From Candidatus Desulfofervidaceae bacterium (GTDB taxonomy: Bacteria; Desulfobacterota; Desulfofervidia; Desulfofervidales; Desulfofervidaceae): a DNA stretch of 59,775 nt. The notes under the pieces are model-generated. The model did not search any database. It had not been told where the DNA came from and saw nothing but the letters and a program-made list of their open reading frames with translations. Below, piece after piece: positions 545 to 55,213 of this stretch. Both the position numbers and the translations under genes were made by a program. Every line of letters begins with the position of its first letter. The stretch's first letter is position 1. The stretch covers positions 1-59,775 of the forward strand of contig JAMOPI010000009.1 of assembly GCA_027064585.1 (NCBI GenBank). The letters are read 5' to 3'.

Positions 545-1393
545 ATGAAAAAAACTTCTTTAGGTACAAATTTTGTCATTTCCTTTCATCCTTGTATTGA
601 GGCCGACTTAAATTTACTGATTGCTGACCATGCCTTACACCCTCGCCAAAAAGAGTTGATTTACCAGGCAAAGGCCATTATTTTACCTCAAGGGTGTCGT
701 AGGGATGTTTATTGGTTTTGCCGCTGGCATTGTCCGCATGTATTTCCTAATTATGACCTTCGTTTCCCAGGAGAAGGCAAGGTTGGAGATGCCCTTTTAT
801 GGAAGTCTTTAGGTCTTCCTCATCCGAGGACGGTTATTTATCCAGATACCACTTCCTTTTATCATCTTCACTTTGTAAGAAATACCTCCCTACCCTTTTC
901 TTTTCCCTTTGTCCTTAAGGCCAACCGAGGCGGGGAAGGAAGTATGGTTTTTTTGATTGAAAGTCAGAAAGAAATTGAAGAGAAACTCTCTATGCTTAAG
1001 TCGCTAGAAAAAAATCAAAATTGGCATGGATTTATTTTGCAAGAATTTATCCCTAACCAAAAAAAAGACCTGCGTGTGGTCATTATAGGCCAAAGGCGAT
1101 TTTTCTTCTGGCGGATACAGAGGGAAGACCATTGGAAGACAAATCTCGCCCAAGGGGCTGTGATTGATAAAGAAGTTTCTACAAAAGTTCAGAAACGAGT
1201 TAATCCTTATTTGGACAAGTTCTGTTGTCAAACAGGCATAAATCTAGCAGCCATTGATTTACTTATACCGAATGTAGAAACACCTCTTTTCCTTGAGATA
1301 AATTATTATTTTGGCCGGCAGGCCTTAGGAGGATCTGACCGTTTTTATCAGTTGTTAGATGAGGTCATAAAGGAGTGGTTAAAAACGATATAG
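545..1393 (+). CDS. ATP-grasp domain protein (RimK-like)
   Basis: A 282-residue protein of the ATP-grasp superfamily. Visible signatures are the nucleotide-binding segment PFVLKANRGGEGS (about residues 119-131), the adenine-contacting QEFIP with DLRVVIIG, and the metal-binding FLEINYYFG near residues 248-256, where E and N match the family's acidic-x-N triad. ATP-grasp enzymes ligate a carboxylate to an amine or thiol through an acylphosphate; the substrate cannot be told from sequence. It is paralogous to the protein at 32352-33131: both carry (L/I)PHPRT, DLRVVII or DIRVVII, and NLAQGA. The start has no strong Shine-Dalgarno sequence. The gene stands alone and converges on the next operon. 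Confidence 0.75.
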   Translation: MKKTSLGTNFVISFHPCIEADLNLLIADHALHPRQKELIYQAKAIILPQGCRRDVYWFCRWHCPHVFPNYDLRFPGEGKVGDALLWKSLGLPHPRTVIYPDTTSFYHLHFVRNTSLPFSFPFVLKANRGGEGSMVFLIESQKEIEEKLSMLKSLEKNQNWHGFILQEFIPNQKKDLRVVIIGQRRFFFWRIQREDHWKTNLAQGAVIDKEVSTKVQKRVNPYLDKFCCQTGINLAAIDLLIPNVETPLFLEINYYFGRQALGGSDRFYQLLDEVIKEWLKTI

Positions 1394-1432: not shown

Positions 1433-2371
1433 TTATCTCATTACCAAGGCATCTTTAGGTAGACCAAAGGTCTGAGCAATTCTTTCCAAGTTTTTTCCTT
1501 TAGGAATAGATTTACCCTTTTCCCACATATTTACCGTAATCCTTGCACAACCAATCCGCTCTGCCAAATCAGCTTGAGTCCAACCCTGCATCTTGCGTAA
1601 CATTTTTATCTTCTTGCCAATCTCAGCCTGGCGACAGATACGGCGATAGTGGGAATCAAAAGTGCATTTCACTTCTTCTTCTAACAATTTACGTCCCAAA
1701 GTGACAATTTCTGCACATTCTGTATCCTTACCTTCAAAGTATAACTGTTCCAGTAAGATAAAGGTTGCACAAGCTACTGGCAAGAAATCTTTAAAGGTCT
1801 CTTTAAGCCGCCTTCTTATTTCTTCCTTAGGAAGCAGCCTTCCTTTTTCATCCTTAAACAGAGGCACGATGTGCTTTTCTAGATAGAGGTTAACTGCCCT
1901 TTCCCAATTAGGCGTTTGCAGACTCCGCTTTGCCTTTAAGAGCTTCTGTCTTACTGCCTCTCTCGTTAAACCGTAGTCCTTGCCAATCTCATTCAAAGTT
2001 TCACCATAGAAGTAGCGTCTTACAAAGAATACCCTCTCCTTTTCGGGAACAAAGCGAGCCATTTTTTGCAATATTTCTCTAAAGGGTGTTTGCAAAAACT
2101 CTCTTTCTGCCTCTTCCCAGTCGGTTACAAACTTGTTTAGTTTATTTACAAGACTTTGGACCGAACGGTGCCATAAGTTTCTTAGGGTTAAGGCCTTGCT
2201 AATGGGTGTGATAGCTAGTTTACCTAAGGTCTTTATCCCTAAGGCCTTACAAAGTTTGGCCTCTCTTTCGTTCAAAACTAGGCACTCTACTGGATAGTCC
2301 TTAAACTTTTCTAATCGCTTAAGGCTCACTTCGTCTCCAAAAGTAGTTATTTTTTTAACTACTGCCTTCAT
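1433..2371 (-). CDS. Triple-domain regulator: alpha-CTD-like + sigma-4-like + XRE HTH
   Basis: A 312-residue putative transcription factor with an unusual architecture. Residues ~27-80 resemble the RNA polymerase alpha C-terminal domain (helix-hairpin-helix pattern with ALGIKTLGKLA, then RNLWHRSVQSLVNKL). Residues ~108-152 look like sigma-70 region 4 (VPEKERVFFVRRYFYGETL followed by the helix-turn-helix LTREAVRQKLLKAKRSL). Residues ~252-310 are a Cro/C1 (XRE) helix-turn-helix (MQGWTQADLAERIG, then ITVNMWEKG). The middle (~155-250) is helical and unassigned. No sigma region 2 is present, so it is not a conventional sigma factor. It is last in an operon with the radical SAM gene, overlapping it by the four bases ATGA. 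Domain calls are from motif reading; function is inferred only as DNA binding and possibly polymerase contact. Confidence 0.7.
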   Translation of the reverse strand: MKAVVKKITTFGDEVSLKRLEKFKDYPVECLVLNEREAKLCKALGIKTLGKLAITPISKALTLRNLWHRSVQSLVNKLNKFVTDWEEAEREFLQTPFREILQKMARFVPEKERVFFVRRYFYGETLNEIGKDYGLTREAVRQKLLKAKRSLQTPNWERAVNLYLEKHIVPLFKDEKGRLLPKEEIRRRLKETFKDFLPVACATFILLEQLYFEGKDTECAEIVTLGRKLLEEEVKCTFDSHYRRICRQAEIGKKIKMLRKMQGWTQADLAERIGCARITVNMWEKGKSIPKGKNLERIAQTFGLPKDALVMR

Positions 2372-3771
2372 CTCCTATCACCCCTTTCTTTTTGCTTATA
2401 AAATAGCACACTTTTTGCTTGTTTGCAAGAGGCGTGCCAAATTTTTCTTTTAATATCCTTTAGGTCGGAAAGTTCAAAAGAATTACTAGCGCAAGGAAGA
2501 ATAGAATTGTTATGAAAAAGCGGGTCTTTATCTATAGGATGTCTACATTTTTTGATGGCTTCTAACCAAAGTTTTGTGCCTGGGATGGGAGAATATTCGG
2601 CCAGTCGTGGTGTTACTCCTATTCTTTGTGCAAAAATAACAGTTTCTTCTACTTCTTCTCTTGTCTGTCCTGGCAGGCCTACTAGGATATAGGCACCGAT
2701 TTGTTCCTTAGTAAAACCGGCCTCTTGTAAGTAACGCACGGCCTGTATAAATTCTTCACGGGTCAACTTTTGGTCATGCCGTTTAGGGCTGGCTGTCTCT
2801 AACCCCAGCCTAACGGTTTTAACTCCAGCCAGTTTCATCTTTTGGGCTACCTCGGCGGTGATAAAACGGGCGTGGAGGCCATTTGGAGTGTGAAAATGAA
2901 GCTCGGCCTTGCTTTTGATAAGCATCTCAAACAAAGGAAGGGCATGTTCTCTGGCATTCACAAGCAAGGCGTCATCATAAAAGGCAAACTCTTTTACACC
3001 GTAATGTTTGTGCCAATAAAGAATTTCTTTAAACACATCCTCAGGGGGGCGTTGGTAAAAATGAGGGAAAAGTAAGGAAGAAGCGCAATAATCACAACGA
3101 AAGGGACATCCCCTAGAGGTAAGAATGCAAACATAGTCCAGTCGTCGCAAGAGGTCAAAGGCTGGATAAGGGGCATCGGGATCATATTCCATTTGGGGAA
3201 GATAGTCTGGTTTAAAATTACAAATTTGTTCTAAAAGGGGGAAAAGTGTCTTTTCGGCTGGCCCTTTTAGGACAAAATCGGCCTGGCTGTGTCTTAACGC
3301 ATGTTCGTAACAGAGGGTGGCATAAATACCACCTAAAATGACCGGCACCCCTAGCCACCTTTGCTTACAAAAATGAATGACAGCAAAGACCCCTGGGTAC
3401 CAGTAAGTCATACCAGAAGTAACCAGGATGGCATTAGGCCTGGGTAGATTCTCTAATTCCTCTTTAAAAATGCGAAAGGTCAGGCCGTAGCGATAATAAT
3501 ACCGGGGGATGTCTTTAAAAAAGATTGGCTTGGGTATGCGCTGGCGGAAAAACTTGCCAGTGCCGTCTGGCCGGCGCGAGGCCTGCTTGACACCTGGTTC
3601 AAAGGGCATTTTAGGATGATGAGGATCAAGGCAGTCCAAAAAATACACCTCTGCTCCACTACGTCTTAACCAGCTGGCGATATATAACAGACCAAGAGGC
3701 TTTGCCCAAAAATCGTGGGCGGCAAAGTCATAAATCCAGGGATTGATTAAGAGAAAGCGGTGCTTAGGCAT
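2368..3771 (-). CDS. B12-binding-domain radical SAM protein
   Basis: A 467-residue member of the cobalamin-binding radical SAM group. The N-terminal ~160 residues have the layout of a B12-binding domain (LLINPW, then KPLGLLYIASWLRRSGAEV). The radical SAM motif CxxxCxxC is at C222, C226 and C229 (SRGCPFRCDYC) and would bind the [4Fe-4S] cluster that cleaves S-adenosylmethionine. Such enzymes methylate or rearrange unactivated carbons; the substrate is unknown. The start at 3771 is chosen over an upstream one because it overlaps the end of rlmB by 8 bases (ATGCCTAA), which implies translational coupling. Its stop overlaps the start of the following regulator. The B12-domain assignment rests on layout and is less sure than the radical SAM motif. 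Confidence 0.82.
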   Translation of the reverse strand: MPKHRFLLINPWIYDFAAHDFWAKPLGLLYIASWLRRSGAEVYFLDCLDPHHPKMPFEPGVKQASRRPDGTGKFFRQRIPKPIFFKDIPRYYYRYGLTFRIFKEELENLPRPNAILVTSGMTYWYPGVFAVIHFCKQRWLGVPVILGGIYATLCYEHALRHSQADFVLKGPAEKTLFPLLEQICNFKPDYLPQMEYDPDAPYPAFDLLRRLDYVCILTSRGCPFRCDYCASSLLFPHFYQRPPEDVFKEILYWHKHYGVKEFAFYDDALLVNAREHALPLFEMLIKSKAELHFHTPNGLHARFITAEVAQKMKLAGVKTVRLGLETASPKRHDQKLTREEFIQAVRYLQEAGFTKEQIGAYILVGLPGQTREEVEETVIFAQRIGVTPRLAEYSPIPGTKLWLEAIKKCRHPIDKDPLFHNNSILPCASNSFELSDLKDIKRKIWHASCKQAKSVLFYKQKERGDRR

Positions 3772-4525
3772 TCTTGATTTTTTTACGCCAGATTTCATAA
3801 AGACAAATGGCCGTAGCACTGCCCACATTGAGAGAGTCAATATTTTTCTGCATAGGAATAGTAACCAAAAAGTCACACTTTTCCTTTATCAACCGGCTCA
3901 TCCCCTTATGCTCATGGCCTACGACTATGACCAGAGGCAAATCGTGTGGAACCTCCCACACAGGCATTTTCCCTCTTGCCACTGTGCCGACAACCCAAAG
4001 ACCATTTTCCTTTAATATCTCTAAGGTCTGCCCCAGGTTGGCTACCTGGACTATCGGCATGCGCAGGACCGTTCCAGCTGAGGCCTTTATGACCGTGGGC
4101 GTAATCCTAGCCGCCCTGTTTTTAGGCATAATTATCCCTTCTACGCCAAAGGCAGTAGCTGTTCTGATGATATTACCTAAATTCTGAGGGTCTTGAATAT
4201 GATCTAAGGCCAAAAGCAAAGTTGGTTTTTGAGCCAAGAGGTCTTCTAGATAGGCTTCCTTGTATTGCTTTAATAATCCTACTACGCCTTGATGAACGAT
4301 TTTATGGCCAGCCTCTTTTCCCAAACTATCAAAATAAGAAGGAGGGCGAAACTTTATCGTCACACCCTTTTCTTTGGCCAAAGAAACTAACTTTTTCTTT
4401 TTAGAAGGACTTAAATTCTCTACTATAAATAGAATATCTATTGTTTCTGGCCGCTGGTTTAGGGCCTCCCAGATGGGTTGCCAACCATAAATGTATTCTC
4501 CCTCTTTTGACACACTCATCTTCAA
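3764..4525 (-). CDS. rlmB: 23S rRNA guanosine-2'-O-methyltransferase (TrmH/SpoU family)
   Basis: A 253-residue SPOUT methyltransferase. The N-terminal substrate-binding domain begins YIYGWQPIWEAL. The catalytic domain has motif 1 (DPQNLGNIIRTATAFG, around residues 112-127), motif 2 (VGHEHKGM, 202-209) and motif 3 (SLNVGSA, 231-237), which together form the trefoil knot that binds S-adenosylmethionine. The family methylates the 2'-OH of G2251 in 23S rRNA, or related sites in TrmH relatives. It is the first gene of a three-gene overlapping operon, an odd pairing with a B12 radical SAM protein and a regulator. An alternative start two codons downstream is possible. Confidence 0.9.
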   Translation of the reverse strand: MKMSVSKEGEYIYGWQPIWEALNQRPETIDILFIVENLSPSKKKKLVSLAKEKGVTIKFRPPSYFDSLGKEAGHKIVHQGVVGLLKQYKEAYLEDLLAQKPTLLLALDHIQDPQNLGNIIRTATAFGVEGIIMPKNRAARITPTVIKASAGTVLRMPIVQVANLGQTLEILKENGLWVVGTVARGKMPVWEVPHDLPLVIVVGHEHKGMSRLIKEKCDFLVTIPMQKNIDSLNVGSATAICLYEIWRKKIKNA

Positions 4526-4602
4526 ATGATATAATTTTTTTGTGAAAGCTTAACATTTTTGTGTGTTTTTTCAATGGTGTATAAGTAAAGGGCAAAAGTT
4601 AG

Positions 4603-4823
4603 CCAAAATCCGCGATTGATTTATAGTATTCCGCAAAAAATTGATGAATTTCCCTTCTGGCTTCAAAAAGAAATTTGCGCCGCAGCGAGTGCCTCTCACC
4701 GCTGGCCAAAGGTCATCCGTAGGGCTTGGCCTTGACCGCATGAGCGAGCGAAGGCGCTATAATTACGATTGGGCCTTGGAAGAAAAAGTCTCCATAAATT
4801 ACATAGAATTATGCGGTTAACTA
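4603..4823. repeat. Dispersed repeat, copy 1 (GC-rich core with conserved flanks)
   Basis: This region between rlmB and tsaC begins with CCAAAATCCGCGATTG and ends with GCGGTTAACTA. Its outer parts match, in reverse orientation, the inside of the MITE at 54912-55213: the segment around TTTATAGTATTCCGCAAAAA on one side and ATAAATTACATAGAATTATG on the other. Its GC-rich centre (about 4680-4752) is homologous, on the opposite strand, to 8851-8938. No coding potential is visible. Unlike the copy at 54.9 kb it has no GAGGCTGTTTGAAAA ends. Confidence 0.8.
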
Positions 4824-4854
4824 CAAAAATATACTAAAAATAGATGCTTAATCA

Positions 4855-5454
4855 ATGTTATTATCTCCAGACAAAATAAAAAAGGCAGTAGAAATTATTC
4901 AAGAGGGAGGTATTATTGCCTATCCCACAGAAACCTTTTATGGTCTGGGCACCAATGCCTTAAATGCAAAGGCCGTAGAAAGGCTGTTTAACATTAAAAA
5001 ACGCCCTTACACAAAGCCTATTCCCATCCTTATTCCCAATTTAGATTGGCTTAAAAAACTCACTTTGTCCATTCCGCCCCTTGCTGAAGAATTGATTGCC
5101 CGTTATTGGCCAGGGCCTCTTACGATTGTCTTCGCCGCCACTGATCTTTTACCTCAAAACCTAACGGCCTCTACGGGCAAAATCGCTATCCGTATCTCTA
5201 GCCATCCTCTAGCTCAAAGATTAGTAGAGGTTTTAGACATTCCCCTTACGGCCACGAGTGCAAATCTTTCCCAGATGCCACCTCCTACCTGCCCAGATGA
5301 AATCCATTCTGAGATAAAGGCAGAAATAGATGCTATTTTAGATGGAGGGAAGACCAAGGGAGGGCTTGCGTCTACCATTATCGATGTAACTGTAAACCCA
5401 CCTCAGATTTTGAGGGAGGGAGCCACCAAGATAAAACTCCCTCCCTTATATTAA
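4855..5454 (+). CDS. tsaC: Threonylcarbamoyl-AMP synthase (Sua5/YciO/YrdC family)
   Basis: A 199-residue YrdC-domain protein that forms threonylcarbamoyl-adenylate from threonine, bicarbonate and ATP, the first step of t6A37 modification of ANN-decoding tRNAs. The characteristic opening GGIIAYPTETFYGLG is present, followed by IKKRPYTKPIPILI, the ATP and bicarbonate pocket of this family, then RYWPGPLTIVF and TATSANLSQMP. Length fits the short TsaC form without the Sua5 C-terminal domain. No strong ribosome binding site precedes the ATG at 4855. The gene is monocistronic, converging on clpB with only seven bases between the stop codons. Confidence 0.92.
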   Translation: MLLSPDKIKKAVEIIQEGGIIAYPTETFYGLGTNALNAKAVERLFNIKKRPYTKPIPILIPNLDWLKKLTLSIPPLAEELIARYWPGPLTIVFAATDLLPQNLTASTGKIAIRISSHPLAQRLVEVLDIPLTATSANLSQMPPPTCPDEIHSEIKAEIDAILDGGKTKGGLASTIIDVTVNPPQILREGATKIKLPPLY

Positions 5455-8721: not shown

Positions 8722-9509
8722 CTCCAAATCCGTGATTCCCCTCCAAGAAACCCCGGAAGTATGCCATAATAAAACAATTTTTTAAAAAAACATCTTTCAC
8801 CTAAAAGGTGAAAAGAAATTTATCTTTTCCTCAAACCCGATTATAAATAATTATAGCGCCTCCGCTCGCTTAGCGGTCAAGGCCAAGCCCTGCGGGTGGC
8901 CTTACGGCTAGCGGTGAGACGCGCTCGCTTCGGCGCTGACTTTTTATTTGAGGTTGGAAGGAAAAAGAGAAATTTTCTTTTTCTCTTTCCTCCTTTCGCA
9001 ACTTCTTTCTTTTTATTGCTGGCGCATTAGGTGGTTTTATCGGGGAAAACTGTAGAGAAGTTTTCCAATAAATAAAAAATTATAACAAGGCAATACACTT
9101 GACCTTTTTCCGTTGGGCTCCAAAAAGCAAGTGATTTCTATGATAAATTGAAAAAATATTTAAAAGACTTAAAATCTTTTATAGAAAACCAATGTTTGGG
9201 AGAGAATAAATGGAAGTTAGATTTAATTTAATATTTTAGTACCTTGAAAAGGAAGATCTTAAAAATGAGAAGTCTTAATCCATAAACAAACTTACCAAAT
9301 AAAACTAAACCTGCTCTGGGAGTGATAATTTCGTAAGTCTTCTCTAAAATGAATGGAAAAATAGTTTGTTTACTTTAAAGTTTTTTTGTTTTATCATTGT
9401 TCTTACCCCGTGAGTGTGTTTTCACCTTTTAGGTGAAAGGTATTTTTTAAAAAATTACTTTATTATAGCACACTTGCGGGTTTCTTGTAGGGTAATCACG
9501 GATTTTGAG
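8722..9509. mobile_element. 788 bp non-autonomous element with ~94 bp terminal inverted repeats
   Basis: The left end (8722-8815) and the right end (9416-9509) are inverted copies with roughly 85% identity by eye. Both run from CTC(C/A)AAATCCGTGATT through AAGAAACCC and TTTTTTAAAAAA to a 19-base palindrome (TTTCACCTAAAAGGTGAAA at 8795-8813, its complement-type partner at 9420-9438). The interior holds the GC-rich core shared with two other loci (8851-8938) and AT-rich sequence without a convincing transposase. It fills almost all of the 929-base gap between clpB and radA. The right palindrome followed by T-runs could also act as a terminator. Confidence 0.75.
8851..8938. repeat. GC-rich dispersed core, copy 2
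   Basis: The core starts TTATAGCGCCTCCGCTCGCT and contains TCAAGGCCAAGCCC and AGCGGTGAGA. The same order of blocks occurs on the complementary strand at about 4752-4680 and, more diverged, around 54997-55050. It is rich in short self-complementary blocks and stands out from the AT-rich surroundings. Confidence 0.7.
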
Positions 9510-54911: not shown

Positions 54912-55213
54912 GAGGCTGTTTGAAAAATATAGTTAACCGCATAATTCTATGTAATTTATGGAGACCTTTTTCTTCCCAAGGCCCAATCTAACTAACTGTA
55001 GCACCTTCGCTCGCTCATGCGGTTAAGGGCAAGCCCGAAGGGCACAGCCTGCACCTTTGGCGCAGGTCTATAGCAAGCAAAGTTGACCATCCAACAAGGC
55101 CTTGGCGTATAATTTCTGTAAGTAAGAAGGAAAATTCATCAATTTTTGCGGAATACTATATACTATAAATCAATTGCGGATTTTGGCCCAATGTTCAATT
55201 TTCAAACAGCCTC
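54912..55213. mobile_element. 302 bp MITE with perfect 15 bp TIRs and 10 bp target duplication
   Basis: GAGGCTGTTTGAAAA at 54912-54926 is exactly inverted at 55199-55213, and AGAAAATTTT occurs directly on both sides (54902-54911 and 55214-55223). This is the signature of a transposed, non-autonomous element. The interior is homologous in reverse to the repeat at 4603-4823, including GCGGTTAACTA-type, CAATTGCGGATTTTGG-type and GC-rich parts, and codes for nothing evident. The ~10 base duplication is in the range reported for IS4-type transposases, which is only a hint at the mobilising enzyme. Confidence 0.88.

Follow-up and report, generated by a model that had tools for sequence, protein, structure and literature searches.

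What does a bacterial protein do that joins, in one chain, domains resembling two promoter-recognition parts of RNA polymerase with the DNA-binding domain of a repressor? This question is raised by a gene on the minus strand of a 59,775-nucleotide stretch of DNA (contig JAMOPI010000009.1, referred to in its entirety as the window) from Candidatus Desulfofervidaceae bacterium, a member of the Desulfofervidales, which are a small group of heat-loving sediment bacteria. The original prediction, made by eye, combined parts similar to the C-terminal domain of the polymerase alpha subunit (alpha-CTD), to sigma region 4 (sigma-4) and to Cro/C1 (XRE) repressors, with no sigma region 2, and proposed that the protein contacts polymerase like a built-in activator. 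The coordinates given for the open reading frame (1433-2371, minus strand; 312 aa, ATG start) are correct, and a three-domain protein of alpha-CTD-like, sigma-4 and XRE parts, without sigma region 2, is confirmed by the analysis reported here. The by-eye reading is borne out by Pfam for sigma-4 and XRE and by profile comparison, orthologs and structure search for the alpha-CTD.

Conservation and domain architecture

Full-length orthologs of the regulator (59-82% identity) occur in four genomes in addition to that of the window (G000), namely one of the same genus (G001), two of the same family (G003 and G004) and one of the same order (G005). All ortholog pairs have synonymous sites at or near saturation (pS 0.65-0.85) and a low pN of 0.12-0.26, and the contrast between the two values identifies the regulator as a real gene under purifying selection. 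At its C-terminal end, the XRE call is sustained by a Pfam HTH_3 match at residues 255-307 (E 4e-16); the domain (residues 250-309; 1445..1624, minus strand, as for all parts of the regulator) is a complete five-helix Cro/C1 helix-turn-helix with a best VIA-align Z of 12.1, and matches to it take up the rows of a structure search with the full-length protein. The N-terminal domain and sigma-4 are joined by a long-helix linker (residues 84-96; helix 65-94 in the AF2 model; 2084..2122). A helical middle region in the same model (residues 166-245; 1637..1876) is the least conserved domain-sized part, and no convincing family was found for it by sequence.

The sigma-4 domain

The sigma-70 region 4 domain extends over residues 97-165 (1877..2083). 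The segment at residues 108-152 that had been called sigma-4-like is matched by Pfam Sigma70_r4 (residues 109-152, E 7e-14), and an RpoD profile aligns by hhalign over residues 67-165 (E 5e-10). Its identity, 88% between G000 and G001 and 77% between G000 and G005, is the highest among all segments of the regulator. The -35 element is read in sigma70 by T583, R584, E585, R588, Q589 and K593 (PMC4943231; PMC8561392), and all six are kept, as T136, R137, E138, R141, Q142 and K146, and invariant in the five orthologs. The -35 recognition helix (residues 136-149, TREAVRQKLLKAKR; 1925..1966) aligns with sigma70 R584, E585, R588, Q589, K593 and R596 (residue roles from PMC4943231 and PMC8561392), the last of these being R149 in the window protein and K or H in some orthologs. 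The core-binding sigma residues R562, G577 and L598 are kept as R118, G130 and L151; sigma70 R603 is replaced by W156 and E555 by K111, and the F563 equivalent is also changed, in an alignment to RpoD that contains a 4-residue gap in region 4.1.

Sigma region 2, with which a sigma factor reads and melts the -10 and binds core, is missing as claimed: Pfam finds no region 2 match in the regulator, and a search of the genome with the Pfam region 2 model misses it as well. That search returns four proteins, each a full-length sigma factor that has region 4 as well. With region 2 absent and all four of these proteins complete, the regulator cannot be a sigma factor alone. A region 4 without region 2 is nevertheless what SigO has (PMC8103513), and the protein might be imagined as one half, carrying region 4, of a sigma factor split in the manner of Bacillus SigO-RsoA, with its region-2 protein encoded elsewhere; this is very improbable given that every region-2 protein of the genome already has its own region 4 and that the genome search gave no region-2-only partner.

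The alpha-CTD-like N-terminal domain

In the whole regulator, Pfam RNA_pol_A_CTD matches residues 22-79 at an E of 0.1, which is under the curated cut-off. When the N-terminal fragment is searched in isolation against 24,736 families, the same family comes out on top for all five orthologs (best E 1.5e-4) and is the sole family in three; in whole-genome scans the alpha-CTD model matched this region in 5/5 orthologs and most of the domain in four. The ortholog profile aligns by hhalign with same-phylum RpoA C-termini over 62 gapless columns (residues 22-83; 2123..2308) with a score of 37.8; none of 300 column shuffles exceeds 23.6, and the reversed profile gives 13.8. Single RpoA sequences score from 18.8 to 40.6 against the N-terminal domain profile, some reaching just 19-27. 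The RpoA profile and the top single sequence together span 37.8-40.6. A generic helix-hairpin-helix was rejected as an identification, since the NusA, LigA and TM0106-like controls from the same genomes score at most 20.5 over 29-43 columns and cover less of the domain.

A model of residues 8-104 (pLDDT 79.6), compared by VIA-align, has alpha-CTD entries of the PDB at all of ranks 1-37, the best superposing 63 residues at 1.7 A (Z 7.7). RAD51-type helix-hairpins come next at Z 6.5, near the alpha-CTD rows, and for this reason the fold by itself is not decisive for an alpha-CTD. Sequence and structure give one and the same register, in which regulator residue i corresponds to alpha residue i + 229, and the alpha-CTD originally placed at residues 27-80 is found at 22-83. 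The protein has no alpha N-terminal assembly domain by Pfam, and a separate RpoA is encoded in the genome.

A different origin for this domain, as a decayed sigma region 3 in a truncated sigma factor to which an XRE domain was added, is suggested by an NCBIfam RpoD_Cterm match and some tblastn matches that span residue 46 into region 4. Residues 1-95 alone, however, score 11.4 against RpoD regions 3-4 and 38.0 against the alpha-CTD, and the fold search returns alpha-CTDs; we therefore rejected region 3 as the identity of the domain, and regard this origin as barely credible.

In the polymerase, the alpha residues R265 and N294 reach into the minor groove, and K291 and K298 touch the backbone (PMC7822876). 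The first two correspond to R36 and N65, which are invariant across the five orthologs; the K291 equivalent (position 62) is not basic, that of K298 (position 69) is R or K, and W67 stands in place of alpha-CTD glycine 296, a replacement that may disturb the DNA-meeting helix. The invariance of the base-reading residues of both modules, in a protein whose overall identity is 59-82%, speaks against a reading in which an XRE autoregulator has recycled the alpha-CTD and sigma-4 folds, which would serve only in assembly or in responding to a ligand and play no part related to polymerase. Such recycling is conceivable insofar as helix-hairpin-helix and sigma-4-type helix-turn-helix folds are common building blocks, the NusA/TM0106-like helix-hairpins score close to the weaker single RpoA sequences, and an XRE domain alone would suffice for a palindromic element of the kind described below; we consider it unlikely.

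The residues through which the two modules would meet each other and the polymerase are partly lost. Alpha D259 and E261 contact sigma70 R603 (PMC5511352), and in the regulator they have become C30 and V32. As judged by alignment, the DNA-reading residues thus appear better kept than several polymerase-docking residues, and contact with polymerase could still occur. These residues bear directly on the proposal of a polymerase-contacting activator, in which the XRE domain would bind DNA and polymerase would be recruited by sigma-4 docking on the beta flap or the resident sigma, or by the alpha-CTD contacting sigma. The strong conservation of sigma-4 and the three kept core-binding positions are in its favour; the alpha/sigma contact, lost on its alpha side (C30/V32) as well as its sigma side (W156), and the changes at the E555 and F563 equivalents count against it, as does the position of the sole conserved DNA element between -35 and -10 (see below). 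With alpha D259/E261, sigma R603 and E555 all changed, the built-in activator of the original prediction finds no specific support, and we consider it rather doubtful.

Gene neighborhood

The regulator lies downstream of a B12-binding-type radical SAM (rSAM) gene (2368..3771, minus strand; Pfam), which follows rlmB, encoding the 23S rRNA G2251 2'-O-methyltransferase (3764..4525, minus strand; NCBIfam TIGR00186). The three genes had been described as an odd operon coupled by overlaps, and both overlaps exist in this genome, of 8 bases between rlmB and rSAM (3764-3771) and of 4 bases between rSAM and the regulator (2368-2371). The 4-base overlap is not conserved: it arises because the rSAM frame of this genome reads through the stop position of G001 and G004, and an earlier rSAM stop in G001, G003 and G004 leaves a spacer of ~40-60 bases before the regulator. 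The order rlmB - rSAM - regulator is found in the window, G003 and G004; in G001 rSAM adjoins the regulator and rlmB is not next to them, and in G005 rSAM is on a different contig, among unrelated genes. The rSAM gene is present in 67 of 118 genomes of the phylum, nearly all without the regulator, which makes a dedicated rSAM/regulator pair unlikely; G002, a complete genome of the class, is without both genes, a loss or absence that counts as one event. No shared motif was found upstream of rlmB/rSAM across three genomes.

In G003-G005, lnt and prfB come after the regulator, and these two genes are still adjacent in G002 (lnt region, L070), where a search without positive control gave no rlmB match at E 1e-20. 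A RimK-type ATP-grasp gene (545-1393, plus strand) is convergent to the regulator, as it is in G001, and in G003 a gene that is dksA-like by eye (L071, 7017-7394) is divergent from the rlmB-rSAM-regulator cluster. An interspersed repeat lies upstream of rlmB (window 4600-4830) and recurs at 8848-8965 and 54930-55187; copies are found at 54 places in this genome, 24 in G004 and none in G001, with no Rfam match, and G002 and G003 also contain the 20-base motif at its end (window 4603-4622). At the rlmB start there is a 12/12 sigma70 consensus promoter (TTGACA, 17, TATAAT; 4507-4535, plus strand), directed away from rlmB toward a gene at 4855, with the repeat in a long leader.

A candidate operator and promoter

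Conservation upstream of the regulator gene points to a 17-bp palindromic element, AAGCAAAAAGTGTGCTA (AGCA-N7-TGCT; 2404..2420, minus strand), as a candidate operator. It is identical at 17/17 positions in G000, G001 and G004 and at 16/17 in G003, is embedded in more divergent flanking DNA, and has been kept across these four genomes despite the near-saturation of synonymous sites; in G001, G003 and G004 it lies past the rSAM stop, outside coding sequence. In the order-level ortholog G005 it is not recognizable beyond a loose resemblance. The palindrome is imperfect, with arms (AGCA/TGCT) of just 4 bp that are 11 bases apart centre to centre. In the window it occupies the 17-base spacer of a candidate regulator promoter (2400..2428, minus strand) read from the sequence as a -35-like TTGCAA (2428-2423), 17 nt and an extended -10-like TGC-TATTTT (2405-2400), which a consensus promoter scan did not pick up; the -10 in G003, TACCTA, is poor. 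From these features we infer that the region is the regulator's own promoter with a candidate operator inside it. The main alternative is that the element could have been kept as a promoter, for its extended -10 TGTGCTAT, and not as an operator.

The 15-bp core of the element has no second site with fewer than two mismatches in G000 and G001, and several one-mismatch sites in G004. When up to two mismatches are allowed, all genomes give high counts, and because this includes G002, where the regulator is absent, such matches do not define a wider regulon.

A regulator that may occupy its own promoter

A position between -35 and -10 is usual for operators that serve repression, and we infer that an autoregulator occupying its own promoter is to be favored over an activator that contacts polymerase. 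Specifically, we incline, at somewhat short of an even chance, to an XRE-anchored autoregulator whose sigma-4 and alpha-CTD modules mimic the half of polymerase that reads the upstream promoter. The XRE domain would anchor the protein at the AGCA-N7-TGCT element within its own promoter's spacer, probably as a dimer with one half-site per AGCA arm, and the other two modules would read the adjacent -35 and A/T-rich upstream DNA, side by side as in the holoenzyme. As a protein without sigma region 2 cannot open DNA, the expected outcome would be occlusion of the promoter (autorepression), possibly also at a few other sites.

More broadly, the regulator could mimic, in a single chain, the half of the holoenzyme that docks on promoters, and be steered by its XRE domain to specific promoters, where it would compete with or replace the UP and -35 contacts of polymerase; we put this forward only tentatively. 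We know of no bacterial transcription factor for which such XRE-steered polymerase mimicry has been reported. If -35 and UP DNA are indeed still read by the modules, the regulator is an example of promoter-recognition parts being taken out of polymerase and reassembled into a regulator. If true, this would provide a polymerase competitor of natural origin that acts at the enzyme's own recognition elements, a compact tool for alpha-CTD/sigma-4 cooperation on DNA without the remaining enzyme, and a regulator specific to the Desulfofervidales lineage.

Spread and origin

The regulator family is present in five of six Desulfofervidales genomes, the complete genome G002 being the one without it. 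Neither a full-length relative nor an alpha-CTD/sigma-4 pair was found elsewhere in 297 genomes of the phylum, viral contigs, phages and plasmids, and the full architecture is seen in this collection only in the Desulfofervidales; a 327-aa candidate for an alpha-CTD/sigma-4 pair in G069 proved to be an ordinary sigma factor. N-terminal-domain patterns run against 84,980 species genomes, a scan that reaches close relatives only, gave three records, all of this class. The architecture with XRE looks confined to this order among the genomes searched, and a search of the accessible literature found no paper on an alpha-CTD + sigma-4 + XRE architecture.

A phage or plasmid origin was rejected, as the searches gave only XRE-only or RpoD-like matches, and an association with defense was likewise rejected, as the XRE part accounts for all PADLOC matches save one weak sigma-4 match to MzaA. 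The best explanation is that the regulator is chromosomal and vertically inherited.

Comparison with known systems

SigO of the SigO-RsoA pair has, like the regulator, region 4 without region 2 in its chain (PMC8103513). The regulator differs in that no region-2 partner was found in its genome and in its additional alpha-CTD and XRE domains. We know of no XRE or alpha-CTD domain in SigO.

The two polymerase-like modules are those of PDB 3n97, in which the alpha-CTD and sigma region 4 lie side by side on UP/-35 DNA: the alpha-CTD of that structure matches the N-terminal model of the regulator at Z 7.1, and the sigma-4 of the regulator matches RpoD region 4. In contrast to 3n97, the regulator combines both modules and an XRE domain in a single polypeptide that lacks alpha-NTD and sigma region 2, and it has not retained the alpha/sigma contact residues. 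In other phyla, alpha-CTD and sigma-4 may be fused in single chains, which would share the N-terminal half of the regulator.

With XRE repressors such as P22 c2, SinR and the C-proteins, the regulator has in common a complete XRE helix-turn-helix and, at its own promoter, a palindrome that is a candidate site. The known XRE repressors, as far as we are aware, combine this domain with protease-like, oligomerization or ligand domains and not with sigma-4 and alpha-CTD modules, and the regulator extends the XRE-type regulators rather than forming a new category.
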